Positions 17,490 to 62,463 of a stretch of DNA of 64,000 bases are shown here, one piece after another; positions within the stretch are counted from its first letter, which is position 1; every line of letters begins with the position of its first letter. Source of the DNA: a bacterium. Lineage in GTDB: Bacteria > Armatimonadota > Fimbriimonadia > Fimbriimonadales > Fimbriimonadaceae. The stretch is from positions 124,001 through 188,000 of the forward strand of contig PNMZ01000001.1 in NCBI GenBank assembly GCA_013823945.1. Direction: 5' to 3'. Position numbers and translations under genes: made by a program. The notes beneath the pieces were generated by a model that did not search any database, had not been told where the DNA came from, and saw nothing but the letters and a program-made list of their open reading frames with translations.

Positions 17490-17496
17490 TTGCCAA

Positions 17497-17650
17497 GGGT
17501 AGCATTGGCTACGCTGGTGCTCAAAGTCCCCCCTCTCCGTTTTAATGGAGAGGGGGTTAGGGGGTGAGGTTCGTGTGCATACTCATTACCTAAATTGGGC
17601 AGAACCAAATTTCCCTCCCCAAGTTTGGGGAGGGACTAAGGGAGGGGTTG
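17497..17650. repeat. Long palindromic repeat, copy 1
   Basis: About 150 bases made of two inverted repeats. The first is CCCCTCTCC, a short GTTTTAAT loop, then GGAGAGGGGG at about 17531-17556, followed by TTAGGGGGTGAGGT. A 31-base spacer leads to GAACC, and the second palindrome CCCTCCCC-AAGTTT-GGGGAGGG follows at 17613-17634. A near-identical copy begins 240 bases downstream. Confidence 0.85.
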
Positions 17651-17735
17651 TCACAAGCACAGAGAAAGGACTCCAGATGAATCCGAAGTCCATCTCAATC
17701 AATCGTAACTCCTCGTAATCCGGACATCAACTCTA

Positions 17736-17911
17736 GGGTTGCATTAGCAACGCCAGTGCTCGAAGTCCCCCCTCTCCGTTTTAATGGAGGGGCCCGTCTT
17801 CGCGCAGGCGGGGAGGGTTAGGGGGTGAGGTTCGTGTGCATACTCTTTACCTCAATTGGGCAGAACCGAATTTCCCTCCCCAAGTTTGGGGAGGGATTGA
17901 GGGAGGGGTTG
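17736..17911. repeat. Long palindromic repeat, copy 2
   Basis: Same architecture as the copy at 17497, including the flanking GCATT-x-GC and GTGCTC blocks. It carries about 20 extra bases in the first hairpin (a CCCGTCTTCGCGCAGGCGGG insert). The insert itself resembles another dispersed repeat found at 30108 and 52684. So repeats of two families are nested here. Confidence 0.82.
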
Positions 17912-18120: not shown

Positions 18121-18212
18121 ATATCCTCACAATTATAGCCACCCCAAGCCCCCATCCCCAGGGGCCACCCACCCCGGGAACCCAAAAACCCCATCCCCTG
18201 TTGAACCCCACA

Positions 18213-19550
18213 ATGAAAAAACTACTGGGGATCGCCGCCGCCGCCCTCATCGCAGGTGTGATGTTTGCCCTCGCCCTCCCCCCGCGATCCTTCGGTTTCC
18301 TCGGATGGATATTCCTCGTCCCCCTTCTCCTCACCCTCCGAAACACCCGCTTCGTCACCGGATTCATAGCCGGAATCACTGCCGCCATGACCGCCGCCGT
18401 CATCAGCACCACCCCCCTCGTTGCCCCCAATGTCATCACCACCGGAGACATCAGTTGGAACTACGTCGGATTCGGACTCTACGGCGTAGTCCTTGCCCTG
18501 ATGCTCGGGTTCGCCGCCGAACAAAAATCCCTCACACTCGGCCGCGCCGCAATCCTGGCCTGCCTGGGCGTCGTGATGGAGTGCATCACGTTCATCAAAC
18601 TCCCCGCCCACCTCGCCCTCACCCAATACGCCAGCACCCCCATGCTCGCCCTCGCCAGCATCACCGGAATCTGGGGCGTAAGCTGGCTCCTTTGGTTTAG
18701 CAACTTCGCCCTCGCCTCCGAATCCACCCAAAAGTACTTCCGCCCCGCCGTCGGCGGAGTCGCCCTCATTGCCCTGATCTCATCAACAATCGGATGGCAC
18801 TCCCCTCAAACCCCCGACCGCGTCGTCGGCGCAGTCCAAACCGACCAATTCGGAAGCCAATCAATCCTCCCCATCAACGAATCCCTGATCGCCCAAAATC
18901 CCGACCTCGCCGTCTGGCCCGAACTCAGCATCGCCGAACACGATATCGCCCCAATCCAATCCTTCGCCGCCCGACCCGACGGGTTCCCCATCGTTGCCAC
19001 CCTCCACACCTCCCACGATCCCAAACCCCACAACACCGCCGTCTACATCGACAAATCCGGAGCCCAAGGCAACTATCACAAACGCAAACCCTTCGCCGGA
19101 GAAGCCGACCAAATCACCCCCGGCACTCGCCCCATCGTCGTCCAAACCCTACCCCTCAACGTTGGCCTCAACATCTGCTTCGATAGCTGCTACCCCGGTG
19201 TCATGCGCGACACCGCAAATGCCGGAGACCCCGACCTCATCGCCCTCCCCACCCTCGACCCCGCCAGCCCGAACGGGTTCATCCAGGCCGCCCACGCCGC
19301 TTTCACCCCCTTCCGCGCCGCCGAACTCGGTATCCCCATCGTCCGCGCCGAAGCCACCGCCTGGTCAATGATCGTTGACTCCCGGGGCCGCATCACTGGC
19401 AAACTCCCAACCGGATACGAAGGCACCCTCGCCCGATCAATCGACTCCCCCCAACCCCGCACTATCTACCGAACCCTCGGCGACTGGTTCCTCTGGATGT
19501 GCGCCGGCGTCCTTATTGCTTCAATCTTCCATTCTAAGCACCCTCATTAA
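18213..19550 (+). CDS. lnt: Apolipoprotein N-acyltransferase
   Basis: A 445 aa inner-membrane enzyme that adds the third acyl chain to lipoproteins. Six or so membrane segments fill the first 190 residues, and a carbon-nitrogen hydrolase domain follows. The catalytic triad is visible as Glu in VWPELSIAE, Lys in YHKRKPFAGE and Cys in NICFDSCYP. A last transmembrane segment closes the protein (WFLWMCAGVLIASIF). The ATG at 18213 is used because the longer frame runs back over the tRNA gene. It fits with the many lipoproteins in this window and indicates a diderm. Confidence 0.92.
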   Translation: MKKLLGIAAAALIAGVMFALALPPRSFGFLGWIFLVPLLLTLRNTRFVTGFIAGITAAMTAAVISTTPLVAPNVITTGDISWNYVGFGLYGVVLALMLGFAAEQKSLTLGRAAILACLGVVMECITFIKLPAHLALTQYASTPMLALASITGIWGVSWLLWFSNFALASESTQKYFRPAVGGVALIALISSTIGWHSPQTPDRVVGAVQTDQFGSQSILPINESLIAQNPDLAVWPELSIAEHDIAPIQSFAARPDGFPIVATLHTSHDPKPHNTAVYIDKSGAQGNYHKRKPFAGEADQITPGTRPIVVQTLPLNVGLNICFDSCYPGVMRDTANAGDPDLIALPTLDPASPNGFIQAAHAAFTPFRAAELGIPIVRAEATAWSMIVDSRGRITGKLPTGYEGTLARSIDSPQPRTIYRTLGDWFLWMCAGVLIASIFHSKHPH

Positions 19551-19610
19551 TCCCAAACCGGACCCGCCAACCCCCCGACCCCCTCCAGGTACTATGCAAC
19601 TCCCCGACGA

Positions 19611-19686
19611 GGCGACGTACCCAAGTGGTTAAGGGGAGGGACTGCAAATCCTTTATGCATCGGTTCGAATCCGATCGTCGCCTCCA
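19611..19686 (+). tRNA. tRNA-Cys (GCA)
   Basis: Acceptor GGCGACG pairs with CGTCGCC, followed by discriminator T and an encoded CCA at 19684-19686. The anticodon loop CTGCAAA carries anticodon GCA. The T loop is TTCGAAT. Overall it closely resembles known bacterial tRNA-Cys. Confidence 0.95.
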
Positions 19687-19695
19687 ATATCTTTC

Positions 19696-20247
19696 TTAAG
19701 CGAACAGCGAATCAAAAACCACGTCAATCTTCGCCGTTGCATCAAATTTCTGGTTTGTCAAATGCGCCACCGACATAAATCCAAACAGCGTCGCCGCCAA
19801 AAGCTCCGGATCAGCAAACGGACTCCCCTTCTTCGTCTTCGCCTTCCCAACTGCCTCCGTCATGGCCCCCACCCAGTCCGAATAAATCCCCAAAACTTCC
19901 TTCCGTAACTCGGCATGTTCCACACTCGCCGCATAAAGGCTGAGCAAAACCTTCGCAAACCGGCTCTGCTTCTTGCAATAAGCCTCCGCCAAAGCAAGCT
20001 CTCCTTCCAACTTCTCCGCATCCGATCCGAGCGAGGCATAAAACTTCTCCCGGTCCCCCGCAAACTGCGCCTTCGCAAATTCTGCTACTCCCATCAAAAG
20101 GTCAATCCGCTTCGGGAAGTAATAATGGATCGTCGCATGGTTCATCCCCATCGCCGATGCCACCGTCCGCGCATGCAAACTCTCCAGACCTTCGCTGCCC
20201 ACCAAGTCATAACAAGTCTTCAAAATCTCTGGTCGTCGCTTTTGCAT
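19696..20247 (-). CDS. TetR-family transcriptional regulator
   Basis: A 183 aa regulator with an N-terminal HTH (residues about 25-45: ARTVASAMGMNHATIHYYFP) and a helical ligand domain with no recognised specificity. It is divergent from alr with 68 bases between starts. A 20-bp imperfect palindrome in that gap overlaps its own -10, so the protein probably represses itself. The regulated pathway is not evident, as alr is a housekeeping gene. Confidence 0.9.
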   Translation of the reverse strand: MQKRRPEILKTCYDLVGSEGLESLHARTVASAMGMNHATIHYYFPKRIDLLMGVAEFAKAQFAGDREKFYASLGSDAEKLEGELALAEAYCKKQSRFAKVLLSLYAASVEHAELRKEVLGIYSDWVGAMTEAVGKAKTKKGSPFADPELLAATLFGFMSVAHLTNQKFDATAKIDVVFDSLFA

Positions 20248-20253
20248 AGTCCT

Positions 20254-20259
20254 ATTTTA
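20254..20259 (-). promoter_or_regulatory. Putative -10 element of the TetR gene
   Basis: TAAAAT lies 6 bases before the ATG at 20247 and touches the operator palindrome. Transcription would start at or near the ATG. Confidence 0.5.
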
Positions 20260-20278
20260 ACCGTCCAGATGGTCAGTT
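20259..20278. promoter_or_regulatory. TetR-type operator palindrome
   Basis: AACCGTCCAGATGGTCAGTT is an imperfect palindrome: the outer AAC/GTT, the inner CCA/TGG and an intermediate C-G pair match across the centre. It resembles the ACTGACCA-type half-sites bound by many TetR/AcrR proteins. It sits immediately upstream of the regulator's -10 and between the regulator and alr. Confidence 0.6.
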
Positions 20279-20303
20279 TTCCACTCGTTCCAATATTTTG
20301 AGT

Positions 20304-20309
20304 CAAAAT
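20304..20309 (+). promoter_or_regulatory. Putative -10 element of alr
   Basis: CAAAAT lies 6 bases before the GTG at 20316, arguing for that start codon. Confidence 0.4.
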
Positions 20310-20315
20310 AAACCC

Positions 20316-21410
20316 GTGGAACCCTACCCACGAACCTGGGCCGAGATCAACTTTCCCGCCATGGCGCACAATTTTCGCGTCATTCGTAGCCACATTGGCC
20401 CAACCCCAAAAATCGGTCTCGTCTGCAAGGCCGATGCTTACGGCCATGGCCTCGTCCCCGTCGGCAGGTTCGCCGCCCGCAACGGAGCCGACTGGCTCTG
20501 CGTCGCCAGCGTTCAAGAAGGCGTTGCCCTCCGCGATTCTGGTCTCGATTGCCCCATCATGGTGATGTCCCCCACCCTCCCTGTCGAAGCCGGTCAAGCC
20601 ATCTTCTACAACCTCGACGTCTTTGTCGAATCTTCCGCCGCAATTCAGCATTACCAAACCACCGCCGCATCCCAAGACCGCATCGCCCGCCTCCACCTCA
20701 AGGTGGACACCGGACTCCACAGGTTCGGTTGCACACCCAACCAAATCCTCTCACTCACCCGAGAAATCCAATCCCAATCCAACCTCTTCCTCGCCGGAAT
20801 CGCTCAGCACTTCCTCAACTCTTCCTCCAATCCCGAAAGAACCAATGCCCAGCTCTCCACGTTCCACCAATCACTCACAAACCTAGAAGTCCCTGAAGAA
20901 ACCCTGATCCACACCGCCAATTCCGCCGCTACTGCACTCTATCCCGAGTCCCGTCATTCGCTCGTCCGGGTTGGCATGCACGCCTACGGTATTGACCCCG
21001 ATAACCTCTATCAAAATCAGCTGATTCCCGTCATGCGCTGGTTCACGCGCATCACTTCACTCCGCCATGTTGCCCCCGGCGAAACAGTGTCTTATAACGG
21101 CACATGGCAAGCCACTACTCCATCAACCATCGCAACCCTCGGCGTGGGCTATGGCGATGGCTACCCCCGTGCCCTCAGCAATAAATCAGAGGTCTTCCTG
21201 CAAGGTCAAACTGTCCCCCAAGTTGGCCTCGTGTGTATGGATCAAATCATGATCGAAGTCACGACCGTGCCCAACCCTCAAATCGGTGATGTTGTCGAAC
21301 TCCTCGGTGAAAACATCCGCGTTCCTACCCTCGCCCGCGCCGCCGACACCAATAGCCACGAAATCGTCACCCGACTCATGACTAGGGTCAACCGCCGCTA
21401 CGTCTATTAA
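20316..21410 (+). CDS. alr: Alanine racemase
   Basis: A 364 aa PLP enzyme that makes D-alanine for peptidoglycan. The PLP lysine is in VCKADAYGHG. The catalytic tyrosine is in the C-terminal domain (GETVSYNGTW), and GVGYGDGYPRAL, LVCMDQIMIEV and EIVTRLMTRV are typical. A GTG start at 20316 is preferred to TTG at 20298 because a -10-like CAAAAT lies 6 bases before it; neither has a ribosome-binding site. The end overlaps the convergent serA gene by 4 bases. Confidence 0.94.
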   Translation: MEPYPRTWAEINFPAMAHNFRVIRSHIGPTPKIGLVCKADAYGHGLVPVGRFAARNGADWLCVASVQEGVALRDSGLDCPIMVMSPTLPVEAGQAIFYNLDVFVESSAAIQHYQTTAASQDRIARLHLKVDTGLHRFGCTPNQILSLTREIQSQSNLFLAGIAQHFLNSSSNPERTNAQLSTFHQSLTNLEVPEETLIHTANSAATALYPESRHSLVRVGMHAYGIDPDNLYQNQLIPVMRWFTRITSLRHVAPGETVSYNGTWQATTPSTIATLGVGYGDGYPRALSNKSEVFLQGQTVPQVGLVCMDQIMIEVTTVPNPQIGDVVELLGENIRVPTLARAADTNSHEIVTRLMTRVNRRYVY

Positions 21411-22621
21411 CCATTTGATGGGAGGTCAAAAATGCTCGCATCAAAAATCGCGGGATGCGTTTTGATCGCCAGCAAGCCAGAAGCCGATACCACTTTGTCC
21501 AGGGCAATCTGAGCAATCGCACTTTGCGCTCCACCAAGGATAATGTTCTCCATTTCTTGAACGTTGACTCCCTCATCTCGGAGAACGCCAAGCACATGCG
21601 AGAGAACCCCGACCTTATCCTGGTGGCGTACCACCAAAAGGTGAGTCGCAACTGCCCCTTTAGTCACATTGACGACGTTATGAACGATCCCCGTGCTCTT
21701 AAAGTCAGCTACGATTCTCACGACCTCCGCTGCAACTGCCTCCTGAGCCTGCTCCGTCGATGCCCCTATGTGGTGAGTACAAACAACCCCCTTCGCATCT
21801 GTCATTGGCCCCGAATATTCCGCCTCGGCTGCTGCTGGCTCACCATCAAAAACATCCAATCCAGCACGAATCCTTCCCGCCTGACAGGCTTCAAGCAATG
21901 CCGCTTGGTCAACCACTTCCGATCGAGAGGTATTCACAAAGATCGCTCCTGGCCGCATGTTGCCAATCAACTCTGCCGAAATCATCCCTTTGGTCGAAGG
22001 ATTCAAAGCCGTATGAACGCTGACCACATCCGCCTGAGAAACCAAGTCCTCAAGCGACTCCGCCCGGGCAATCCCCAAAGCCGCCGCCGCCTCCGGTTGC
22101 ATCCACCTGGAGTAAGCAATTACATTCATCCCGAACGCCTTTGCCCGCGGAATCATTTCCTGCGCAATATTTCCCATCCCAATCAACCCAAGGGTTAAAC
22201 CATAAAGTCCCCGCCCCTTAGAATAAGCTTTCTTGTTCCATTTTCCGTTTCGCAAATCCACCGCACAATCTGCAATGGATCGGTCAACCGCGAGCATCAA
22301 GCCAAAAGCCAATTCCGCAACCGCAATCGAATTCTTACCCGGACAATTTGCAACATAAACCCCTCGCTCACTCGCCGCCGCAATGTCAATCGTGTTCACC
22401 CCCGCACCCGCCCTAATAACGAGGGTCAAAGCATCCGCCGCCCCCATCGCGTCTGCTTCCACTTTGGTCGACCGAACGACCAAAACCGCCGGCTTCTCCC
22501 GTTCAATCGCATCTCGCAAACTGTCCCCATCCAAGTCAGCATCCTGGACAACCTCACATCCAATCGCTTTCAAGCCGTCAAGAGCCGACTGTTCTAACTT
22601 ATCTGCAACCAAAACCTTCAT
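21407..22621 (-). CDS. serA: D-3-phosphoglycerate dehydrogenase with ACT domain
   Basis: A 404 aa NAD-dependent dehydrogenase for the first step of serine synthesis. The cofactor motif GLIGMGNIAQE lies near residue 145. The catalytic set is Arg in NTSRSEVVDQ, Glu in LDVFDGEP and His in CTHHIGAST. The last 80 residues form an ACT regulatory domain (VRHQDKVGVLSHVLGVLRDE). The ATG at 22621 is preferred over TTG two codons earlier. A TAAAGT lies 6 bases upstream. It follows the YyaL-like gene by 9 bases on the same strand, so it may also be reached by read-through. Confidence 0.92.
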   Translation of the reverse strand: MKVLVADKLEQSALDGLKAIGCEVVQDADLDGDSLRDAIEREKPAVLVVRSTKVEADAMGAADALTLVIRAGAGVNTIDIAAASERGVYVANCPGKNSIAVAELAFGLMLAVDRSIADCAVDLRNGKWNKKAYSKGRGLYGLTLGLIGMGNIAQEMIPRAKAFGMNVIAYSRWMQPEAAAALGIARAESLEDLVSQADVVSVHTALNPSTKGMISAELIGNMRPGAIFVNTSRSEVVDQAALLEACQAGRIRAGLDVFDGEPAAAEAEYSGPMTDAKGVVCTHHIGASTEQAQEAVAAEVVRIVADFKSTGIVHNVVNVTKGAVATHLLVVRHQDKVGVLSHVLGVLRDEGVNVQEMENIILGGAQSAIAQIALDKVVSASGLLAIKTHPAIFDASIFDLPSNG

Positions 22622-22627
22622 GACCAA

Positions 22628-22633
22628 ACTTTA
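22628..22633 (-). promoter_or_regulatory. Putative -10 element of serA
   Basis: TAAAGT on the - strand lies 6 bases before the serA ATG. It overlaps the last codon and stop region of the upstream gene. Confidence 0.35.
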
Positions 22634-24727
22634 CCCCTCACGTACGCCAATCACATGTCCTTTAACCTCAATTTCATCTGGGCGATAACATTCGGAATCC
22701 GAACAAAGTTGATACCCGAGTCGAACAACGAATTCACCACTTTGACCAACCGGTTGGACCCTTATTCCTATTTCGACCATCCCCGAAAGCTGCCCAGTCT
22801 CGCTCCCTGGAAAACTCACTTCCGCATAACCACCGTCCACGGCCACCGACAAAGGTATCAGCCAATCAGCTCCCGGATCATTGGAATTGATATGAAAACC
22901 ATCAGGAATCCGAACAACCAAATGTGCATAAGCCCAACCATCCGGATCCATCTGAAGTGGTGACGGATCAAACCAAGCCTCAATCGCCGTTCCTTGCCCA
23001 GCGATCGGCGAAGTAACTTGCCGACCCAAAACCAACTGCTCTAAGCACTCAAGCAAAATGGTTGCCGCCGCTTGTGGAGCCCGTTGCGCCCATCCATACG
23101 CAGCGGTTAAATGCTCAAGCGCTTCATCGTTGCGCCCCACCCGCCGCAGTAAACCAATTGCGACCCCATTGGCACTCGGAACCGCTTGATCCAAAAATGG
23201 CTTCTGCCGACCAATCAATTCCTCGTGCTCCCGACCCGTAAAGTAAAATCCTCGCTGGTCAGCGAACTCGTCCACCATACGGTCAACGATCAAAGCAGCG
23301 TCCCGACCTAAGTCCACCAAAGCCATGCCAAAGTAGGCAAAGTCATCGAGAAATCCTCCGACTGACTCATGCCCCTCAACCCACTGGTGGGGTAACTCGG
23401 CCCCATAATTCACAAAGAATTCTGCCACTCTAGTTGCAAGATCAAGTCGGCCTGCTTCCGCCAGCCCCGAGATCACCAACGCATTCCAAGCGAGCAGTGC
23501 CTTATCATCGCGCCCTGGTTGCTGTCGGTCTAATCGCCTCTCCAACATCTCATCTAAATCATCCAGCCGCCAGCCAATTGACTGACGCGCCAAGAGATTT
23601 AAGCCCAAATAAGCCCCCGTCGCCTCGTCCCGAAAGTTCCCCCCTGACTCAAACCCATAAACGTCCGCCACCCCATCAGAAACCTCATCCCGCTTCCAAA
23701 GATAAGTCAAACCCTCTTCACCATCAGTGTCCGCATCGAGTGCCGCCGCATAAACATCTCCCACCCTCATTTCCCGCTCGAGCCACCCCACAATCCCGTC
23801 CGTCACTTCTTCAAACAGTCCCTTCAACTCTTCATCATCGACCATCCGCGCTGCCCGGGCGTAAAGCCAAAGCATTTGCCCGTTGTCGCTCAGCATCTTC
23901 TCAAAGTGCGGCAAATGCCACTGCGCATCTGTGGAATACCGGTGAAACCCTCCACCAACATGATCGCGAATCCCTCCCAGTGCCATCTGCTCCAGCGTTC
24001 TCATCACCATATAAACCGCCGTATCAATCAGCCCTGCCCCATCTCCCGGCAAACTTGCTCGGACTTCAATGTAGCGCATCAAAAATCGCAAAGCTGCAAA
24101 AGGCGGAAACTTGGGGGCTCCGCCAAACCCTCCATTCACTTCGTCAAAATCCTCCCGCATCGCCCGCACTGCCCCATCCACCAAACCCACATCAATCTTG
24201 TCCGTCACCGGTGGAATAGTTCGCTCCAAAACCTGTCTCAACCCCTGGGCAAATTCTTCACTCTTGCGCCGAATCTCCGCTTCCTCCTCTCGCCAAGCCC
24301 CCGCCAGCGCCGCCAAAATCTGCAAAAGCCCCGGATTCTCCCCCCGCCCATTTTTCGGGAAGTACGTTCCCGCAAAGAACGGCTTTCCATCCGGAGTCAG
24401 AAAGACCGACATCGGCCACCCTCCCCGCCCCGTCGCCAATTGCACCGCTGTCATATAAAGATCATCAATATCGGGCCGCTCCTCCCGGTCAAGCTTGATA
24501 CACACAAAATCCCGGTTCAACATTTCTGCAACTTCCAAATCCTCAAAACTCTCATGCGCCATAACATGACACCAATGACAACTAGAGTAACCCACGCTCA
24601 AAAAGACAGGCTTGTTCTTTTGCCGTGCCTCGTCCCAAGCCGCTTCGCCCCATTCCTGCCAATCCACCGGATTCTCCGCGTGTTGGCGCAAATACGGCGA
24701 AGAACTCAAAGCAAGACGATTCGGCAT
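22631..24727 (-). CDS. YyaL/SSP411-type thioredoxin-domain protein fused to a DsbD-alpha-like domain
   Basis: A 698 aa protein. The N-terminal 170 residues are the DUF255/thioredoxin-like domain ([20 protein letters not shown], then the redox-type motif CHWCHVM). A six-hairpin glycosidase-like alpha/alpha barrel follows, ending near residue 580. The last 115 residues do not belong to usual YyaL proteins: they read [18 protein letters not shown] and [17 protein letters not shown], which matches the N-terminal immunoglobulin-like domain of DsbD with its two cysteines. The ATG at 24727 is used since it gives the conserved family N-terminus. It has no signal peptide, so a DsbD-alpha-like domain in the cytoplasm would be odd. 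Function of the family is unclear. Confidence 0.85.
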
Positions 24728-24813
24728 TTCAAAATCAGCATACCGACCCACCTCCGGCCCGCACAGGGAACGAACCACCCCATCCCAAACGCTATACTTC
24801 CCGACAACCAATC

Positions 24814-26442
24814 GTGAGCAAGCTCGAACCAACAAACAGCCTCACCCCCAATATCGCAAAAGGCGGCATTATCATGGCCGCCAGTATCTTCCTCTCCCGA
24901 ATCCTTGGCTTGGTTCGCGAAGCTGTAATCACCGGACAATTCGGAAACTCAACCCTCACCGACGCCTATTTCGCCGCATTCTCGATCCCCGACCTGCTGT
25001 TCTATCTCGTCGCCGGCGGAGCCCTCAGCAGTGCCTTCATTCCCGTATTCAGCGAATATCTCCATACCGATCGCGAAGATGAGGCATGGCACATCTTCTC
25101 CGTAGTCCTCACTCTGATGTCCATCATCGTGGCCATCTTCATCGCCGTGGCGATGGTATTCACCCCCCTTCTCATCCAGATCACCGCCCCCCAAACTGAC
25201 CCATCCAAAGCCGCCGAATTCTATCCAATGGCCGTCATGATGGCCCGCATTGTCCTCCCCGCCCAATTCGCATTCTTCATCGGAGGAATCCTTTTCGGCA
25301 CCCTCTACAGCCGCAACATCTTCACTGTCCCCGGGCTCGGGCCAAACATTTACAACATCGGCATCATCTTTGGCGCTTTAGTTCTCAGCCAATTCATGCT
25401 CGTCCCCACCGCTGGCATGAGCTGGGGGGCAACGATTGGCGCATTTATCGGCAATCTCTTGATTCCCCTCATCGCCATGCGTTCGATCGGGCTCAAATAT
25501 AAATTTAGCCTCGACACCAAACACCCGGGCGTCCGAAAAGTCTTCCGGCTCATGGCCCCGGTCGTCTTCGGTCTATCTCTTCCCGGTGTGTTTGCTCTAT
25601 TCCTGGTCGCTTTCTCCAGTTGGGGCTACGGCGAAAAGTCCGGCTTCATCTCATCATTCCGCCAAGCCAACACTCTAATGCAAGCCCCTCTCGGCGTGTT
25701 CGGTCAAAGCATGGCCCTTGCCGTTTTCCCGGCTCTCAGCCAGTTCTTCGCCCAAAAGAACATGGACATGTTCCGCGACCAACTCATCAAAACTCTCCGC
25801 AGCGTCATCTACCTCACCGTCCCCGTGAGTTTCATCCTCATCTTCGCCAGCTCGGATGTCATCCGCCTCGTTTACCAACACGGTCGATTTACCGCTGAGG
25901 ACACCGCTCGAATGGCTCCCCTCCTCACGGCATTCGCCATCGGAGTCCCCTTCTGGTGCCTCCAACCAATTCTCATGCGGGCCTTCTTCGCTATCCAAAA
26001 CACTCTCCGCCCCATCCTTCTCGGTACGCTCGCCACCGCCATTTTCCTCGCCATCAGTTTCGCCGTGGTAACCACCAACCAGGCACCGTACGCCCTCGCC
26101 CTCGGAGGCTCTGTCGCTGCCATAGCCCTCGTCATACTTCTCATCAAGTCAATTGCCAAAGAAGTTCCCGGCCTCAACACCGCCCCATTACTTAAAACTG
26201 CCGTCAAAGCATCTGTCGCCGCTATCCCTTCAACTGCAGTCTTCTGGGGCATCTTTCGACTCAGCGAGCGGTTCCCCTCCCTAGACAACAAGTACGCCGC
26301 CCTCGCTCTTGGCCTACTATTTGGTCTGATCAGCCTATGGGTCTATTACTTCATCACTAAGTTCTTCAAAATGCCCGAATCAGCCTATTTGGATCGAGTC
26401 GCAAACCGAATAAACAAAAAATCAAAACCGGAACCAAACTGA
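24814..26442 (+). CDS. murJ: Lipid II flippase MurJ
   Basis: A 542 aa polytopic membrane protein (about 14 helices) of the MviN/MurJ family, which moves lipid II across the inner membrane. The family opening [20 protein letters not shown] and the conserved [31 protein letters not shown] are clear, as are [20 protein letters not shown] and the mid-protein basic residues. The GTG at 24814 is chosen; longer in-frame starts would run through the divergent YyaL-like gene. A TATACT 15 bases upstream is a candidate -10. Confidence 0.94.
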
Positions 26443-26466
26443 TATTACAATCCGTAATAAATCCGT

Positions 26467-27774
26467 ATGTTCCTGATCACTGCCCTCATCGCGCCCCTCG
26501 CATTAACTGCCTCGGCTCCAATCCAATCTGGAGAACTCCCTCGAAAACCTGCTCTCGGCATCCAATTTCAAGCCGGAACCCTAGTCGTTGCCGGAACTGT
26601 TCCCGGCGGCTCTGCTGAAAAAGATCTCAAACCCGGAGACATCCTCCTAAGCCTCAATAATGTCACACTAGAAAATCCCCAACTTCTTGGCTCTACCGTC
26701 GCCCAGCTCAAAACCGGCGAGAAAATCCCCGTTGTCCTTCAAAGAGACGGCAAGGTCGTCAACTTGACCCTAACCCTCAAAGAAAGACCTCGAGAAACAT
26801 CTCCCGACTACGACGTGATCTATAGCCACGTAATGAGCAACGGCAACCGGATTCGCACCATCATCACAAAACCAAAGAAAGAAGGGAAATTCCCCGTCTT
26901 CTTCATGATGCAGGGCCTCGGTCAGTTCAGCATGGATTACCCCCTGTCCGGACCATCTGGACCATACAAAGAATTTGTCCAACACTTCGCCAAGAAAGAC
27001 TTCGTCACCATCCGGGTCGAAAAACCAGGAATGGGCGACGCCGAAGGCGGACCCTACCCCGAAACCGACTTTTTCACCGAAGGCGATGTCTACCTCCAAG
27101 CCCTCCGGGACATCAAAACCAAACCGTACGTCAATCCCGACCGAGTCTTCCTTTTCGGACACAGTATGGGCGGAACATTTGGCCCATGGGTCGTCAGCCA
27201 AGAGCCTGTCTATGGCTTCATTCCTGCCTCAACCCTCTACAAAACATGGACCGAATATTGGATTGAGAATGTCCGGCGCCAGCAAGCTCTCGCCGGAGCA
27301 AGCCCCCAAGAGCAAGATGCCGGAGCCCGAGCCGATGCCGTAATCCAACCTCTGGTATTGCTCCATAACTGGACACCCGCCCGTGTTGCTGAAGAATTCC
27401 CAGTCTATAAACCATACATTGACGAATACTTCGGTCAAGACCCCACTAAGATGATGGGCCGCACCCTCGGATTCTGGCGTCAACTTGCCGGACTCAACCT
27501 CCCCGAGCTTTGGAGCAAAGTCAATGCCCGCACCCTCGTCCTCTGGGGTCAATGGGATTACGTCAGCACCGAAGCAGATCACATGATGATCCGCGACCAG
27601 CTTAATTCCCAAAACCCAGGATCAGCCACCTATGTCCGCATCGATGACGCATTCCACGGCTTCACCAAAGCCACCAGCTACGAAAACGCTCGAGCCGTCC
27701 CCAGCCAACCGTTCAACTTCAAAGTCATCGAAGTGATGGATGAGTGGATCAAAAAGCAACTCGCCGACAACTGA
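26467..27774 (+). CDS. Exported PDZ domain-alpha/beta hydrolase fusion
   Basis: A 435 aa protein. Signal peptide MFLITALIAPLALTASA has no basic n-region. A PDZ domain covers residues about 30-105 (ALGIQFQAGTLVVAGTVPGG, LKPGDILLSLNNV). An alpha/beta hydrolase follows, with an oxyanion region in MMQGLG, the nucleophile elbow GHSMGG, an Asp in LWGQWDYVS and a His in DAFHGF. The family of extracellular acyl hydrolases with an attached PDZ is rare. It is probably periplasmic; the PDZ may select C-terminal or lipid ligands. It lies 24 bases after murJ. Confidence 0.82.
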   Translation: MFLITALIAPLALTASAPIQSGELPRKPALGIQFQAGTLVVAGTVPGGSAEKDLKPGDILLSLNNVTLENPQLLGSTVAQLKTGEKIPVVLQRDGKVVNLTLTLKERPRETSPDYDVIYSHVMSNGNRIRTIITKPKKEGKFPVFFMMQGLGQFSMDYPLSGPSGPYKEFVQHFAKKDFVTIRVEKPGMGDAEGGPYPETDFFTEGDVYLQALRDIKTKPYVNPDRVFLFGHSMGGTFGPWVVSQEPVYGFIPASTLYKTWTEYWIENVRRQQALAGASPQEQDAGARADAVIQPLVLLHNWTPARVAEEFPVYKPYIDEYFGQDPTKMMGRTLGFWRQLAGLNLPELWSKVNARTLVLWGQWDYVSTEADHMMIRDQLNSQNPGSATYVRIDDAFHGFTKATSYENARAVPSQPFNFKVIEVMDEWIKKQLADN

Positions 27775-27888
27775 ACAAACCCAAAAACCAAACGTCCCTA
27801 AAGCTGTTCGATCAACGTTCAATCGCAAAAACGTGGAACTCAAAGTTCCAGATCGCCTGTAGTGAAGGACAGGCATGCGACAACGATC

Positions 27889-27927
27889 GCCGGCTCAAGA
27901 CCCGCAAGTCTGAGCCGGCATTTTTTT
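27889..27927 (+). terminator. Intrinsic terminator after the PDZ-hydrolase gene
   Basis: GCCGGCTCA at 27889-27897 pairs with TGAGCCGGC at 27911-27919, followed by A and seven T residues. A smaller hairpin (GCCTGT/ACAGGC, 27855-27874) lies just upstream. Confidence 0.9.
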
Positions 27928-28048
27928 ATTTGAACTATCTTGCATGTTAAAACTCATACAAATCTCACAATTTCGCCGAACTCTCACCTCGACTCTAAGT
28001 CTCTACTCAGCAAGGCAATCCCAAGAATTGCCAACAAAAAGGACAACC

Positions 28049-28537
28049 ATGAACAGTCTCAAAACAATTCTCGTCGCCGCAAGCCTCCTCGTCAGCGTTT
28101 TCGCTTTCGCCCAGGCCGAACATGGCAACCACACCGCCGGAAAAGGCGTTGCCAAAAATCAAGAGCAAACTGCTGAGTTTGAATTCCGTGCTGGACAAGT
28201 CCGCAACGGGGAATTAAAAGGGAACTTCAGCATGACCGTCGGCGGACAAAATCTTCCGTCACGCGTCAAGATCGAACTCAAACGAATCGGCGACCTCGAA
28301 ATCGGTGAAGACCGAGCCTCATTCCAAGGTGCCGGAGTTCTGGTCGTCAACCGAAATGGACGACTAGAACGTGTCGAGGGCCGAATCAAAGTCACGGTTT
28401 TCGACGTTACCGGACCGAACGAAAACGGCGAGGACCGACCGCAGCGAGATCGAATCAAAGTTGAGTTCAAAGCCGCCAATTCCAACCTCACGTTCGACTT
28501 TGAAGGGTTCGTCACTCGCGGCGATATCCGGGTCTGA
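28049..28537 (+). CDS. Small exported beta-rich protein of unknown function
   Basis: A 162 aa protein with a standard signal peptide (MNSLKTILVAASLLVSVFAFAQA). The ATG at 28049 is chosen for its AAGGA ribosome-binding site and for the signal peptide; a longer frame from 27944 is possible but unlikely. The mature part (FRAGQVRNGELKGNFSMTVG, then VEGRIKVTVFDVTG) looks like a compact beta sandwich with many charged residues. I do not recognise the family. A strong terminator follows. Confidence 0.75.
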   Translation: MNSLKTILVAASLLVSVFAFAQAEHGNHTAGKGVAKNQEQTAEFEFRAGQVRNGELKGNFSMTVGGQNLPSRVKIELKRIGDLEIGEDRASFQGAGVLVVNRNGRLERVEGRIKVTVFDVTGPNENGEDRPQRDRIKVEFKAANSNLTFDFEGFVTRGDIRV

Positions 28538-28552
28538 CATTAATCTAATCGA

Positions 28553-28584
28553 AATGACCCTCCCATCCGGGAGGGTCATTTTCA
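28553..28584. terminator. Bidirectional terminator between convergent genes
   Basis: AATGACCCTCCC at 28553-28564 and its complement GGGAGGGTCATT at 28569-28580, a near-perfect 12-bp stem with a 4-base loop and T residues on the + side. It serves the exported-protein gene and, from the other strand, the GyrI-like gene that ends at 28582. Confidence 0.85.
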
Positions 28585-29043
28585 CGACTTCTTAGCCGAG
28601 GCGACAAGCCGAGTTTGAAGATCAGCCTCCGGAACTTCTGTATGGTCATTCAAATATTCTTCAAAGCACCAATCCCAATCAGTGCCTCCAGCTGCTTCCA
28701 GCGCATGAGAAAATTCCGACCATGCCGCTGGCAACCCTGAATAAGGGCCACTGTAAATCGACACTAAAAACTCTCCTTCCGGAACATCAATCAAATGCAA
28801 ATCCGGGTGGTCAAGTTCAAAATCAAGCCCAACCGGAACCGCCGCATCACTTCTCAATTCGTCAACCGGTGTACTCTCTGGGTCGTCATACCAAAATCCC
28901 GCTGGTGGACCCGCCATTTCAATCCCCAACGGCCCGATCAAGCCAAAGAGCTTTTCAAAGCTATTCCCAATCTCCGGATAAGGGCCGTGATGAGAAATTG
29001 CAAGGTAACGACGAGCTGGAAAAGAACTTCGCGTAACTTCCAT
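28582..29043 (-). CDS. GyrI-like small-molecule-binding protein
   Basis: A 153 aa stand-alone GyrI/AraC effector-binding domain. Typical blocks are ARRYLAISHHGPYPEIGNSF, then FELDHPDLHLIDVPEGEFLV and YSGPYSGLPAAWSEF. Such proteins bind small ligands or protect gyrase (SbmC). No DNA-binding domain is attached. The ATG at 29043 rather than 29070 is chosen because a perfect TATAAT lies 6 bases before it. It is divergent from the aldo/keto reductase gene. Ligand unknown. Confidence 0.83.
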   Translation of the reverse strand: MEVTRSSFPARRYLAISHHGPYPEIGNSFEKLFGLIGPLGIEMAGPPAGFWYDDPESTPVDELRSDAAVPVGLDFELDHPDLHLIDVPEGEFLVSIYSGPYSGLPAAWSEFSHALEAAGGTDWDWCFEEYLNDHTEVPEADLQTRLVASAKKS

Positions 29044-29049
29044 CTGAGT

Positions 29050-29055
29050 ATTATA
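29050..29055 (-). promoter_or_regulatory. Consensus -10 (TATAAT), leaderless GyrI-like gene
   Basis: TATAAT on the - strand lies exactly 6 bases before the ATG at 29043, so the transcript would begin at the start codon. An in-frame ATG at 29070 would lie upstream of this promoter. Confidence 0.6.
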
Positions 29056-29107
29056 CAGGAAGTGAATCAATAATATACAGACATTTTTCTACATTATTCC
29101 AAATACA

Positions 29108-30076
29108 ATGAAACCTGCCAAACTCCAATTGCCCGCCATGAAAACCCAAACTCTCGGTCAATCCCCCCTCGCTGTTTCCCAAATTGCCTTTGGGTGTATG
29201 CGCATATCCGGAACCTGGAACCCGTCCGATTTCACCCCCGCCCACGAAGAAATGGGACGCCAAGCCCTTCTCGCCGCGTACGAGTCCGGATACACCCTCT
29301 TTGACCACGCCGATATCTACGGTCGAACCCTTTGCGAATCGATCCACGGACGCCTCCTCGCCGAATCCCCCGATCTCAAATCAAAAACCACAATCGCTAC
29401 GAAATGCGGCATTCGCTTCGGTGGTGATCCGACTCCAAGCTCCCCTCACCGCTGGGACTTCTCTAAGAGCCATATCATTGAATCGGCTGAACGCTCACTC
29501 GAACGACTCCAAATCAACCAGATTGATCTGTTCCAGCTCCACCGTCCCGATCTCTTGATGGACCCCATGGAAATCGCGGAAGCTTTCCAAATCCTCGCTG
29601 ATCGCAAACTGGTGAAGTTTTTCGGCGTCAGCAATTTCCGACCGAGCATGGTGGACCTCCTCAATGCGAATCTCCCCGAACCACTCATTGTCAATCAAAT
29701 CGAAATATCCCTCGACCATCTTGCACCCTTTGAAGATGGTCAACTCGATTCCTGCCTCATCCATGACCTCACTCCACTGGCTTGGTCACCGCTTGCCGGC
29801 GGATGGCTAGGGTCATCAAGTCTCGAACCTTCTCAATTCACTGACCGCAATGCAAAACTTCACGCGCTTCTCGGCGATTTCAGCAAAAAATACAATACAT
29901 CTCGCCAAAACATCGCTCTCTCGTTCCTTCTCAAGCACCCGAGCCACGTCATTCCAATCATCGGAACTACAAATCCCGAACGTATCAAAGACGCCGCCCT
30001 CGCCGCCGAAATCGAACTTTCTCGAGAAGACTGGTACCAACTTTTCACCACCGCCAAAAACCAACCTCTTCCGTAG
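29108..30076 (+). CDS. Aldo/keto reductase
   Basis: A 322 aa TIM-barrel NADPH oxidoreductase of the YdhF-like group. The catalytic residues are Asp and Tyr in FDHADIYGRT, Lys in ATKCGIRF and His in FQLHRPDLL. The C-terminal NADP-binding loop is IIGTTNPERI. An internal ATG at 29138 (MKTQTLGQSPL) matches the usual family start, so the true N-terminus may be 10 residues shorter. Substrate unknown. Confidence 0.9.
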   Translation: MKPAKLQLPAMKTQTLGQSPLAVSQIAFGCMRISGTWNPSDFTPAHEEMGRQALLAAYESGYTLFDHADIYGRTLCESIHGRLLAESPDLKSKTTIATKCGIRFGGDPTPSSPHRWDFSKSHIIESAERSLERLQINQIDLFQLHRPDLLMDPMEIAEAFQILADRKLVKFFGVSNFRPSMVDLLNANLPEPLIVNQIEISLDHLAPFEDGQLDSCLIHDLTPLAWSPLAGGWLGSSSLEPSQFTDRNAKLHALLGDFSKKYNTSRQNIALSFLLKHPSHVIPIIGTTNPERIKDAALAAEIELSREDWYQLFTTAKNQPLP

Positions 30077-30107
30077 TCAGCATTCAAAGGGCAAAACTAA
30101 GAAAAGC

Positions 30108-30140
30108 GTCCTCCCCGCGAAGGCGGGGATCCAGTCCTGG
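30108..30140. repeat. Short palindromic dispersed repeat (CCCGCGAAGGCGGGG type)
   Basis: GTCCTCCCCGCGAAGGCGGG followed by GATCCAGTCC. A related copy with the same ends is at 52684-52716 and a fragment lies in the repeat at 17736. Such REP-like sequences are common in bacterial intergenic DNA. Confidence 0.7.
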
Positions 30141-30211
30141 CAATATCAGGTCGAAGACACAACTGATGTTCTAACTAGTAATCGAATGCCATGGCTCGGA
30201 CGGCCCGCCGT

Positions 30212-31255
30212 TCACTCACCAGTATCCGGTGGCTCAACTGCACTCCCCGGTCGAGTCGAAGCATCCAAATGCCAAGCGTTCGGAAACGCCTTGACACCAA
30301 GCTCATCCACCGGCGTATTGCCACCCGAAAGCCCCTGAACTTCGTCATAAGCCGACCGCTCAACCGATCCGACAAATGCGACTCGCCCAGCGCTACCGAT
30401 AATCCGAACCGTTGCAGTTTTCGTCGCCGGACGACCAACAAAAACATCGCCCGCTAACATCAGAGCCGTCGTCTCAAATGGCACATCCGCCTCCGCAACC
30501 GCGGTCAAAACCACCTCCTCTTGAGCCGGATTCACCAAAATTGTCTGAATTATTGCCCCCTTCTGAGCCTTGGCAAAAATTGACTGAACTGCTTCCGCAT
30601 CATCCGCCGCATTGACCACCGAGGGCACTGGATCTGGCGGATTTTGCGCTGGTTCCGTAGTTGGCGTCGCTGTCGCTTGTTCAGATGCCGGGATTCGGAT
30701 CGGTTCAGCTGGGGCCTGCACTGCCACTTTCTCCGATTTCTTCCCCGCATTCTGCCCTACAAAGAAGCTCGCAATCCCAACCAAAAGAATCAAAACAACC
30801 ATCGTCGCCCAAAGTAAAGTCAGGCCACTCTTGGGCTTAACTTCCAGCGTCTCAACGGACGCTTGGTGATCTTTTAGTGCCAAATCCTGTGTAACACGAT
30901 CCAGCATCTGCTTTTCTCGAACCGCTTTAGGATCCAAGTCAAGGGCCATCTCAAACCACTCTTTGGCCTGGGTCAACTCCCCGTGTTCCAGATAAATCTC
31001 ACCGAGCAACGAATGCGCCGTAACATTATTCGGAAACGCCCGCAAAATCTTCAAACACTGATCAATCGCCGCTTGCTTATCCCCTCGCATTCGGCTCAAA
31101 TTAGCCTGGGCCAAATCCTGATACACCTCGGTATCAGATCCTTCCCCTTTCCCAATCGTGTAGCCACACTCCGGACAAAAGTCGTTCGCCGCCGCAATCA
31201 CCGCAAAGCATCGCGGACAACTGATCTTATATTCACTTGAGTCCTGTACTGCCAA
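30212..31255 (-). CDS. Zinc-ribbon, TPR and single-membrane-span protein
   Basis: A 347 aa protein. The N-terminus is a double zinc ribbon knuckle ([19 protein letters not shown], residues about 12-30). A TPR region follows (residues about 40-125, [22 protein letters not shown]-like), then one transmembrane segment near residue 170 ([20 protein letters not shown]). The rest is an Ala/Pro-rich linker and an extracytoplasmic domain. TTG at 31255 is chosen: GAAGG stands 5 bases before it and the zinc ribbon follows at once. It overlaps the end of dut by 23 bases and is thus translationally coupled to it. A role in envelope assembly is possible; unproven. Confidence 0.75.
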
Positions 31256-31682
31256 AACCGCCTTCACCTCGTTCCGTTTCGTCAAGCGAATCCACAACTA
31301 TGACATCCGCCCGAGCAATCGGGCAAATCACGAGCTGCGCAATTCGCTCACCTGAATCCAATTGGACGACAGAATCGCTCAAATTGATCAAAATAACTCC
31401 AATTTCTCCCCGATAATCGCTATCAATCGTTCCTGGTGAGTTCAAACAGGTGATTCCTTGTTTCAAAGCCAGACCACTCCTAGGCCGAACCTGACCTTCA
31501 TATCCTCTCGGAATTGCTGCCCGCAAACCAGTTTTAACAAGTGCTCGCTCCATCGGTTGTAACGTCACAGCATGAGTGCTCCGTAAATCCATCCCTGCTG
31601 CTTCTTCTGTCGCATAAGCGGGAACCTGCCCCCCTTCCCCCACCGATAACCTCAAACTAACCTTCAACTCATCCTGCGCCAT
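31233..31682 (-). CDS. dut: dUTP diphosphatase
   Basis: A 149 aa trimeric dUTPase that keeps uracil out of DNA. All five motifs are seen: [40 protein letters not shown] and the C-terminal [10 protein letters not shown]. The divergent pxpB gene starts only 19 bases away. The -10-like TATGAT lies 8 bases before its ATG. Confidence 0.96.
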
Positions 31683-31689
31683 TTCCGCG

Positions 31690-31696
31690 TATCATA
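31690..31696. promoter_or_regulatory. Shared symmetric -10 for the divergent dut and pxpB genes
   Basis: The heptamer TATCATA reads TATCAT toward pxpB (6 bases before its ATG at 31702) and TATGAT toward dut (8 bases before its ATG at 31682). The whole intergenic region is 19 bases, so two separate promoters cannot fit unless their -10 elements overlap and both messages are leaderless. Confidence 0.5.
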
Positions 31697-31701
31697 ACCC
31701 C

Positions 31702-32439
31702 ATGCGTGTGGTCAGACTCAGCGAATCCTGCATCATTTTCAAAGAGTTATCCACCGAACCTGCCCCGATTGCCAATACTCTCAACGAAAGCCCACCTCTC
31801 GGCCTAATAGAAGCCGTCCCCGCATTTAACCAACTTGCTGTCTATTTTGAACCAGACGCTTTTGACTCCGCTGCGTTTGAGAAACTTTTGTTTGCCAATT
31901 CTCCCCTCTCCGTTTCAATGGAGAGGGGGCCAGGGGGTGAGGTAAATAGTTCGGCTCTCTCCTCACGTGGTGAGAACCAGCCCCAAACTCGATCTGGAGA
32001 CTCAGGAGGCGGACAAAATTCCGCACTAGTAATCATTCCCGCTCTCTACAACGGCCCCGACCTCGAAGCCGCCGCCAAATCCCTGAGCCTTTCAATCGAA
32101 GCACTCATTCAATTTCACAGCCAGACAATCTACACGGTCGAAGCCATCGGATTCTGCCCCGGATTCCCCTACCTCGCCGGACTCCCCAAACCCCTCCAGT
32201 ACCTCCCCCGAAAATCAACTCCCCGAACCGCCGTTGAGCCAGGTTCAATCGGCATCACCGGCGATCAATGCTGTATCTACCCACTCGTTCGACCCGGAGG
32301 GTGGAACATCATCGCCCAAACTCCTCTCACCCTCGTCGACCCTGACTCAAACTACTTCCCCCTCCAAGTCGGTGAAAAGATCCAATTCCAACCAATCACC
32401 GTTTCGCAATTTCAAGAGCTCCGAGATAAACGCCTATGA
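31702..32439 (+). CDS. pxpB: 5-oxoprolinase subunit B, with an in-frame repeat insertion
   Basis: A 245 aa KipI/PxpB protein, part of the bacterial ATP-dependent 5-oxoprolinase PxpABC. The C-terminal core is intact: YTVEAIGFCPGFPYLAGLP, PRTAVEPGSIGITG and CCIYPLVRPGGWNIIA. Between the N-terminal strand (AFEKLLF, about residue 64) and the normal continuation (LVIIPALYNGPDLE, about residue 107) lies a stretch of about 40 residues with no place in the family. It is encoded by a copy of the dispersed palindromic element. The frame is kept. The stop overlaps the pxpA start in ATGA. Confidence 0.87.
   Translation: MRVVRLSESCIIFKELSTEPAPIANTLNESPPLGLIEAVPAFNQLAVYFEPDAFDSAAFEKLLFANSPLSVSMERGPGGEVNSSALSSRGENQPQTRSGDSGGGQNSALVIIPALYNGPDLEAAAKSLSLSIEALIQFHSQTIYTVEAIGFCPGFPYLAGLPKPLQYLPRKSTPRTAVEPGSIGITGDQCCIYPLVRPGGWNIIAQTPLTLVDPDSNYFPLQVGEKIQFQPITVSQFQELRDKRL
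31901..32012 (+). repeat. Palindromic element inserted in frame in pxpB
   Basis: CCCCTCTCC, a GTTTCAAT loop and GGAGAGGGGG at 31903-31929 are followed by the same GGGGGTGAGGT tail (to 31942), a 31-base spacer and GAACC, as in the copies behind der. After GAACC the block CCCCAA and a GACT then GGAGG follow, a degraded version of the second palindrome. The element adds about 40 codons with no stop. Confidence 0.75.
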
Positions 32440-33182
32440 AAATCATCGACCTCAATGCTGATCTCGGTGAAGGAATGCCCCACGAGCAGGAAATTCTGCC
32501 CCTGATTAGCAGCGCCAATATCTGTTGTGGTGCCCACGCCGGCTCGCCCGAAATCACTCGCGCTACCGTCGAATCCTGCCTCCAACTCGGTATCCGAATC
32601 GGTGCCCACCCCGGCTACCCCGACCCTGAATACTTCGGCCGCCAGTCCTTTATGACACTGAAAATAAAACCAGGGCCACTTTTTAATCAAATGGTCAAAC
32701 AGACAAATTTGATTCCTGAAGCTAAATACATAAAACCTCATGGCGCTTTTTACAACGACACTGCCAGCCGAGCATATAGATATGATCACTTAGGCGCCAA
32801 AAAGTACAAGAAAATAAAGGAGGACTATTCTCCAAAACCAGATGATATCTACAACGTTCTTCATGCATCGCTCATCATCACGAAACTCCCACTCATGGGA
32901 CTCGCAAATACTTATCACTCCCAAATCGCCAGAAACGCACATGTCCTTTTCATTCCCGAAGGATTCATTGACCGCCGCTACGACAACAACCACCGACTCC
33001 TCCCCAGATCCAACCCCGACGCCATAATCCACGAACCACAAGAAGCAATCGACCAAGCCCTACGTCTCGCCAAAACCTGCGATTCCCTCTGCGTCCACGG
33101 CGACAACCCCAACGCACCAGAACTCCTGACAAAAGTCCGCCAAGCCCTCGAAAACGACGGTTACACCATCGCACCAAAATGA
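32436..33182 (+). CDS. pxpA: 5-oxoprolinase subunit A (LamB/YcsF)
   Basis: A 248 aa subunit of the 5-oxoprolinase that converts 5-oxoproline to glutamate. Family motifs are MKIIDLNADLGEG, NICCGAHAGSP, GAHPGYPDPEYFGR, KPHGAFYNDTA and the C-terminal CVHGDNPNAPELL. From residue about 112 to 136 a lysine/tyrosine-rich stretch (AYRYDHLGAKKYKKIKEDYS) appears longer than in usual members and is AT-rich. It overlaps both neighbours by 4 bases (ATGA), so pxpBAC is a tightly coupled operon. Confidence 0.9.
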   Translation: MKIIDLNADLGEGMPHEQEILPLISSANICCGAHAGSPEITRATVESCLQLGIRIGAHPGYPDPEYFGRQSFMTLKIKPGPLFNQMVKQTNLIPEAKYIKPHGAFYNDTASRAYRYDHLGAKKYKKIKEDYSPKPDDIYNVLHASLIITKLPLMGLANTYHSQIARNAHVLFIPEGFIDRRYDNNHRLLPRSNPDAIIHEPQEAIDQALRLAKTCDSLCVHGDNPNAPELLTKVRQALENDGYTIAPK

Positions 33183-34099
33183 TCACTGTCACCCAATCCT
33201 ACGGCGGTAATTTCATCGTCCCAATTCGCATTCCAAATCTCCGGTGCCAAGGAGTTCCCCCCGGCGGCCCTGCCGATCCTCTCCTCGCCAGACTTGTTTC
33301 GCACCTTTCCCAAAACCAGACCGTCCTCGAACTCACCGCCCCAATAACTCTCGTCACCGATTGCCTCACTCAAATCGCTATCGCCGCACCTCGGAATTCC
33401 GCCTGCATTCCGGATCACCCAACAATGTGCCTCGGCCTGATCAGTGCCTCGCCAAGCACGTCCCTCACCATCCATGCTCCCAAAACAGGCTTCCGCGTCT
33501 ACTTGTCTTGGACGGGACTCAATTCGCAATCCCTCCTCCCAACCCCGATATCAACGGGCCAATCCTTGGCGAGTTCAAACAATCATTTTTCAAGCTCTGT
33601 CATCCTGGATCCCGTCCTCATCCCACCTCCGACAGAGACGATCCGCTACCTATACATCATCGAAAACGCTACGCAAATCCACTGCCAAACAACCCCTGCA
33701 ATTTCTCGCATTGGCAATCGTTTAAGCTTTGATATTCTCGATTCTAACGAAATCCCGCCCCAGACCGCATCCGCGAAAACTAGCCCCCACTTATTCCACA
33801 ACCTCGCACCGAACACGCGCTCCGAACCCTCAACTCACGGCACAATCCAAGTCACACCCGACAACCAACTCCTGATCCATGGCCCCGATGGCCCTACCCT
33901 CGGCGGGTACCCAAAAATCGGCACGATTATCGAAGCTGACCTCCCGTCTCTTGCCCAACTACGTCCCGGCCAGCAGATCGAACTCATTCCCGTATCTCTT
34001 GAAGTTGCCCTCGACCTCCGCCGGGAATCCGCACTTCAACTCCAAAAAACCCTGCATCAAATCAACCAAGCTCTGCGCATCGCTCATAATTCGACGTAG
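33179..34099 (+). CDS. pxpC: 5-oxoprolinase subunit C (carboxyltransferase-like)
   Basis: A 306 aa protein of the biotin-dependent carboxyltransferase-like/allophanate hydrolase subunit 2 family, the third subunit of PxpABC. Markers are GVPPGGPADPLLARL, VLELT, a strongly conserved SRIGNRLSF, and GPTLGGYPKIGTI. The start overlaps pxpA by 4 bases. The C-terminal helix is basic and Gln-rich. Confidence 0.88.
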   Translation: MITVTQSYGGNFIVPIRIPNLRCQGVPPGGPADPLLARLVSHLSQNQTVLELTAPITLVTDCLTQIAIAAPRNSACIPDHPTMCLGLISASPSTSLTIHAPKTGFRVYLSWTGLNSQSLLPTPISTGQSLASSNNHFSSSVILDPVLIPPPTETIRYLYIIENATQIHCQTTPAISRIGNRLSFDILDSNEIPPQTASAKTSPHLFHNLAPNTRSEPSTHGTIQVTPDNQLLIHGPDGPTLGGYPKIGTIIEADLPSLAQLRPGQQIELIPVSLEVALDLRRESALQLQKTLHQINQALRIAHNST

Positions 34100-52438: not shown

Positions 52439-52480
52439 CCCCCTCTCCGTTTCAATGGAGAGGGGGTTAGGGGGTAAGGT
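52439..52480. repeat. Palindromic element (CCCCTCTCC type), downstream of ftsK
   Basis: CCCCCTCTCC, GTTTCAAT, GGAGAGGGGG, then TTAGGGGGTAAGGT. Only the first half of the long element is present. It lies 15 bases after the ftsK stop and could act as a transcription stop. Confidence 0.8.
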
Positions 52481-62366: not shown

Positions 62367-62447
62367 CTCCCCCTCTCCGATTTAATAGAGTTTTAAGTCA
62401 TTTTTCCCCCTCTCCGTTTCAATGGAGAGGGGGATCAAGGGGGGGAG
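62367..62447. repeat. Two adjacent palindromic elements (partial and full)
   Basis: A partial copy (CTCCCCCTCTCCGATTTAAT, 62367-62386) is followed by a full one at 62406-62435 (CCCCCTCTCC, GTTTCAAT, GGAGAGGGGG). The ATG inside the second copy at 62422 is in frame with the next gene. Confidence 0.8.
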
Positions 62448-62463
62448 GAAGGGTTTTTCGGTT

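Follow-up and report, generated by a model that had tools for sequence, protein, structure and literature searches.

The window analysed here comprises 64,000 nucleotides of contig C1 (bases 124001-188000) in a Fimbriimonadaceae genome of 3.16 Mb (Armatimonadota), labelled G000. It contains a pxpB gene whose product matches the CT_C_D domain (PF02682, E 1.6e-44) and has solved relatives (2zp2, 5dud YbgJ and 2phc), followed by a pxpA-like frame (32436-33182) and a pxpC-like frame (33179-34099). As the original prediction had it, the hairpin CCCCTCTCC/GGAGAGGGG with the tail GGGGGTGAGGT lies inside pxpB, where the frame runs through it without a stop and the element occupies the linker that joins the N-terminal domain to the core. 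Further copies are listed in Table 1. Two of the sites named beforehand, 52439 and 62406, were recovered as such, whereas the other two, 17497 and 17736, proved to be the starts of a local duplication, its hairpins beginning at 17529 and 17768. This tandem duplication behind der (17496-17650 and 17735-17911) carries one copy of the element, hybrid in one of the two repeats, and one copy of a second family in each.

Table 1. Palindromic elements of the window and the features of the pxpB gene that carries one of them
Feature	Position in window	Strand	Basis
F1 copy behind der	17529..17570	+	sequence match
F2 copy, TTCCCTCCCC..GGGGAGGG..GGGAGGGG, architecture as in F1	17612..17649	+	triplex scan
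Hybrid F1 copy in the tandem duplicate, with extra CCCGTCTTCGCGCAGGCGGGG between arm and tail and without a simple 3' arm	17768..17831	+	
F2 copy in the tandem duplicate	17873..17910	+	triplex scan
pxpB, KipI-like 5-oxoprolinase subunit B, 245 aa, uninterrupted ORF with the insertion	31702..32439	+	
Expanded interdomain linker, residues 53-112, predicted to be disordered	31858..32037	+	alignment and AlphaFold2
F1 element in pxpB, 42 nt, in-frame reading (S)PLSVSMERGPGGEV	31902..31943	+	
C-rich 5' arm of the pxpB F1	31903..31911	+	
G-rich 3' arm of the pxpB F1, preceded by the loop GTTTCAAT	31920..31928	+	
G-rich tail GGGGGTGAGGT of the pxpB F1, mirror of the 3' arm; predicted reverse-Hoogsteen strand of a class II intrastrand triplex	31933..31943	+	
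F1 copy 18 nt past an ftsK-like gene, the flanking genes being convergent	52439..52480	+	
Partial F1 copy (hairpin remnant)	62369..62390	+	
F1 copy with degenerate tail	62406..62448	+	

Alignment of copies from the genus defined the element, here called F1, as a 42-nt unit, CCCCCTCTCC-GTTTYAAT-GGAGAGGGGG-NNN-GGGGGTGAGGT, with GGGTGAGGT at one end of the consensus, CCC at the other and neither a GTAG nor a CGTC tag. Its tail mirrors the G-rich arm, one T.A-T triad being allowed; in the pxpB copy, the arm GGAGAGGGG is answered by the mirror tail GGGGGTGAGG. Information content drops to ~0 directly outside this unit, whose right end is GAGGT. The 31-base spacing from GAGGT to GAACC had been taken as the mark of a full-length element, but across the copies almost no information remains after GAGGT, which rules out GAACC as the right end; the two copies behind der resemble each other downstream because they are tandem duplicates.

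Within the window, CCCCTCTCC occurs 11 times against 2.1 +/- 1.2 in shuffled sequence, a roughly five-fold enrichment, and none of 100 shuffles reached 11 or more. A composition-blind scan, built on the class II intrastrand triplex definition alone (pyrimidine arm, purine arm and reverse-Hoogsteen mirror purine arm, with short loops and stems no shorter than 8 that allow at most one mismatch), recovered the full motif six times in the window and not once in five shuffles. The genome search suggested beforehand yielded, for F1 in the whole of G000, 17 hairpins with perfect 9+9 arms and 42 places by BLAST, so that the element is a real dispersed one; the set includes hybrids in which a second palindrome replaces the 3' arm. 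Two further families follow the same plan, F2 (CCCTCCCC..GGGGAGGG..GGGNGGGG; 45 exact matches in G000 and 40 in the sister genome G006) and F3 (CCTCCCCC..GGGGGAGG..AGGAGGGG). Both F1 and F2 occur in congeners of G000; of the 61 genomes of the order searched, 27 contain a related hairpin-plus-tail. A fourth palindrome without a mirror tail, F4 (CGTCNTCCCCGCG..GCGGGGATCCAG; window 30107-30134 and 52683-52710), resembles the CGTC-tagged REPs.

The comparisons that follow draw on the complete chromosome of G006 (Armatimonadetes bacterium Uphvl-Ar1, CP021423) and on G003 and G005, which belong to the same genus as G000 and are close relatives of each other. Gene contexts were read from stretches around the matches with a two-strand gene caller of our own, and copies at sites common to sister genomes are not independent.

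The PxpB linker measures 60 residues in the window protein and in its ortholog from genome G007, against 23-46 in 37 other orthologs, with 26 in G003 and G005, so the insertion is missing from most of the aligned relatives, as had been anticipated. Both refuting checks set out beforehand, on orthologs and on copies elsewhere in the genome, thus favoured the original prediction. The ~40 residues first attributed to the element are too many: F1 encodes 14, the whole linker exceeding that of the closest element-free congeners by ~34 (60 against 26), and part of the remainder may be older debris. In an AlphaFold2 model built from 39 sequences, both PxpB domains are predicted to be well folded (pLDDT mostly >90), the linker between them being predicted as disordered, with pLDDT <50 at residues 69-74, 82-93 and 98-104. 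At the corresponding position, the pxpB gene of G006 bears a decayed F1 (25 of 32 positions identical to the consensus, equalled in 0/2000 shuffles) together with three further palindromes, and that of G007 bears a relic of the hybrid form (20/24, again equalled in 0/2000 shuffles). The decayed copy at the same site in a sister species indicates that the insertion is old and inherited; with the relic in G007, it places at least one insertion before the split of G000 and G006. Moreover, the decayed F1 and extra palindromes of G006 and the hybrid relic of G007 indicate that this linker was invaded more than once.

That other genes might carry the element was borne out for ArgRS, PheT, an ArnT-like transferase, a GNAT protein and an FHA protein. 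In G000, palindromes of the F1 family or similar ones stand in frame in the first four of these, ArgRS being affected in three loops: SSLPAGEGKGWG after a CGTC-like palindrome, FPPQDWGGQGGVE-SPPLRFNGEGDQGGEV, and SLPIGEGLREG. An F4 copy lies in frame in ArgRS (stretch L007, ~471-498). The hosts in G006 are PheT, ArgRS and the FHA protein, in which both F1 and F2 separate the FHA domains. The PheT loop HPLD^..IRVRQPHSPEM contains F1 in G006, F2 in G000 and no element in G003 or G005; likewise, ArgRS loop iii contains F1 in G003 and G006, F2 in G000 and none in G005. The same loop was entered by different palindrome families in different species. In ArgRS loop ii the hairpin is intact in six species, one of its pairs being compensated, although its surroundings have diverged; such retention is not predicted by neutral decay alone and leaves room for function or repeated replacement.

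PheT gave a single match per genome and G000 yielded only one full ArgRS; the insert-bearing proteins are therefore presumably functional. The pxpB, ArnT-like and ArgRS frames of G006 appear to be interrupted precisely where palindromic elements with C/G runs of up to 8 stand, which may reflect assembly errors at these runs or may mean that insertions are not always harmless; since ArgRS is expected to be essential, its break in G006 points to an assembly error or recoding. The ArgRS proteins of G003 and G005 also have long unrelated insertions in their middle region, reaching ~250 aa in G005.

The GC skew of G006 is extreme (~+/-0.3), with switches near 1.15 and 2.69 Mb and dnaA at 2.91 Mb, on which grounds the G-rich strand was taken as leading. 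Relative to this skew, the C-arm-first strand of all 67 exact F1 (27) and F2 (40) copies is the C-rich strand (p ~1e-20). All 17 F1 copies of G000 likewise lie on one replication strand, and in the stretches read, the triplex-scan motif falls on the C-rich strand in 31/31 cases in G000 and 46/46 in G006. An apparent wrong-strand F1 in G000 was a reverse reading of the same palindrome. The lock is partial in G003, where the skew is weaker and ~32 of 45 copies, counted by hand, have the locked orientation, and orientation is mixed in G041 and G017, whose weak skew gives no usable leading/lagging call. The F4 palindromes, four of which were seen, lie on the same strand as F1 and F2. The skew itself is of unusual size in the window and the G006 chromosome (~0.3) and is accompanied by an opposite AT skew; it is weaker in G003 and G005.

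Every in-gene copy in G000 and G006 is in sense orientation, and the host genes are all on the non-leading strand; in random stretches of G006, coding sequence amounts to 71.5 kb on the leading strand and 34.8 kb on the other. Intergenic copies, after removal of one artefact, are flanked by genes in the arrangements ++ (19), +- (20), -- (9) and -+ (4); most of them follow a stop codon at a distance of 5-45 nt, and divergent promoters are avoided. An apparent rule that F1 always follows same-strand genes was an artefact of a gene model trained on the window's plus strand under strong GC skew, and was dropped in favour of the two-strand model.

For the BoxC-class triplex repeats, described from E. 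coli as early as the 1990s, we know of no agreed role or means of spread. On sequence and architecture, F1 and F2, whose copies display the class II arrangement (0 matches in shuffles), are best assigned to this BoxC/PIT/TM class of G/C-rich class II intrastrand-triplex repeats, which is found in E. coli, Enterobacter and others (PMC4666352). Both sides of the comparison have a C-rich arm, a loop, a G-rich arm, a short second loop (often TTA or CCG) and a mirror G-rich tail with GGGTGAGG, and both are dispersed with no mobile gene attached. The published TM_ECO pattern, CCCTCNCCC N3-6 GGGNGAGGG N3 GGGNGAGGG, is not matched by F1 because the first loop has 8 nt, the 10-nt arms are slightly shifted and the arm reads GGAGAGGGGG. 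In E. coli, TM_ECO is reported to be always intergenic, to have no strand bias and to lack promoter or terminator activity (PMC4666352), whereas F1-F3 also occur in frame within genes and keep to one replication strand.

The Rickettsia palindromic elements (RPEs) to which the insertion had been likened resemble F1 in behaviour, being palindromes in frame within unrelated housekeeping genes at fold-compatible places. However, a typical RPE is ~150 bp long with a conserved peptide (PMC10969869), whereas F1 is 42 nt long, has triplex architecture and belongs to a free-living Armatimonadota lineage, features that set it apart from the RPE descriptions. The likeness is thus best read as analogy rather than membership, the nearest class by sequence and architecture being BoxC/PIT/TM_ECO. 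GTAG/CGTC REPs are likewise short palindromes found mostly behind genes and sometimes in frame inside them, including tRNA synthetases, giving 'REP-decorated' proteins, and a REP occupies approximately the same recB site in two Xanthomonas species (PMC3733652). F1, F2 and F3, in contrast, lack the tetranucleotide tag, flank no RAYT gene and have a mirror repeat as tail; in G000 only F4 looks like a CGTC REP. IS200/IS605 elements and Y1 transposases share with F1 the hairpin and an insertion bias to one replication strand (PMC6006769), but neither a transposase nor a recognisable full element accompanies F1.

On balance, the pxpB insert is probably a copy of a dispersed, strand-locked class II triplex palindrome family that enters single-stranded DNA during replication and is tolerated in frame, near-neutrally, in surface loops and linkers. 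The non-autonomous palindrome would have spread over the chromosome of the Fimbriimonadaceae lineage, new copies entering via single-stranded DNA at the replication fork in one orientation and without a transposase of their own in G000. Copies would persist between genes, or inside genes when they fall in frame in a tolerant loop or linker, and in-gene copies, near-neutral to the host protein, would be inherited and then decay without serving it. The main rival, possible although we rather doubt it, is that copies in the opposite orientation are selectively removed: insertion would occur both ways, the triplex-forming strand would block replication or slip out when it serves as lagging-strand template, and in-gene copies would be the survivors. 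In keeping with such a purge, the triplex-forming strand in G006 and G000 is always C-rich, i.e. not the lagging-strand template, the rearranged weak-skew genomes are mixed in orientation, and the E. coli motif is tied to small deletions and instability (PMC4666352). Yet TM_ECO shows no such bias in E. coli (13 vs 10 overall; PMC4666352, Table 1), and when the entries of Table 1 were assigned to replichores from the textbook locations of origin and terminus, 13 were leading and 10 lagging; moreover, F4 keeps to the same strand without having a mirror tail.

Mobilisation in trans of a REP-type element by a Y1 (RAYT) transposase since lost from G000 would explain a palindrome with a one-sided unpaired motif and a single-strand bias like that of lagging-strand Y1 insertion (PMC6006769), and RAYT genes do occur in G003, G005 and G006. 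We nevertheless consider it unlikely: the F1 consensus is untagged, no RAYT gene was found in G000, G002 or G004, and those of the other three genomes are flanked not by F1 or F2 but by unrelated palindromes of their own (GCACTGGTTTTAACCAGTGC / CACGGGTTAAAACCCGTG; CCCTACCATTC..GAATGGTAGGG), with which they possibly form REPtrons unrelated to F1. RAYT as the mobiliser of F1 is at most weakly supported. It also seems improbable that selection keeps the hairpin for a function (in mRNA 3'-end protection, in termination or as a DNA structure), the in-gene copies being by-products or regulatory hairpins. The intergenic positions just behind genes, shared with REPs (PMC3733652), a predicted stable F1 RNA hairpin (-23 kcal/mol, z -2.4) and the persistence of the compensated ArgRS loop ii hairpin would all suit a function, but the G006 pxpB copy has decayed, sister species do not share all their copies, the hairpin is not followed by a U-run and the E. 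coli relative showed no promoter or terminator activity (PMC4666352). Finally, an ancestral PxpB linker resembling the palindrome by chance would account for the long linker of G007, but it is already refuted by copy number and ortholog data and retains next to no probability, given the shorter linkers of the 37 other orthologs, the 90-95% identity of the 42-nt pxpB copy to dispersed copies and the absence of the scanned motif from shuffles.

If the pxpB insert is indeed a copy of such a replication-coupled triplex palindrome, repeats known as 'between-gene' can rewrite proteins too: a class apparently related to the E. coli triplex repeats changes proteins, including two essential tRNA synthetases, and bears a clean replication-strand signature. 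In-gene palindromes of the Rickettsia kind arise outside host-restricted lineages as well, here in a third class of repeat that carries no REP tag. A wider proposition is tentative and perhaps overreaching, namely that triplex repeats insert only one way relative to the fork, without a dedicated transposase, and repeatedly place new peptides in loops of essential enzymes that have received such segments before, thereby supplying free-living bacteria with protein insertions on a continuing basis. Both the spread of transposase-less palindromes and how often such palindromes supply new protein segments have now become testable.

The open-access literature searched held nothing specific on palindromes of Armatimonadetes or on a replichore bias of REPs. 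Rfam covariance models run against window positions 17400-32200 matched no family to F1, returning only tRNAs and a weak unrelated match. A sub-threshold resemblance to the whalefall-1 RNA (RF01762) at 25105-25158, within a coding region, is probably due to chance. A perfect inverted repeat, CCTGCATGATG..CATCATGCAGG, unrelated to F1-F4, stands between genes at 52729-52756.
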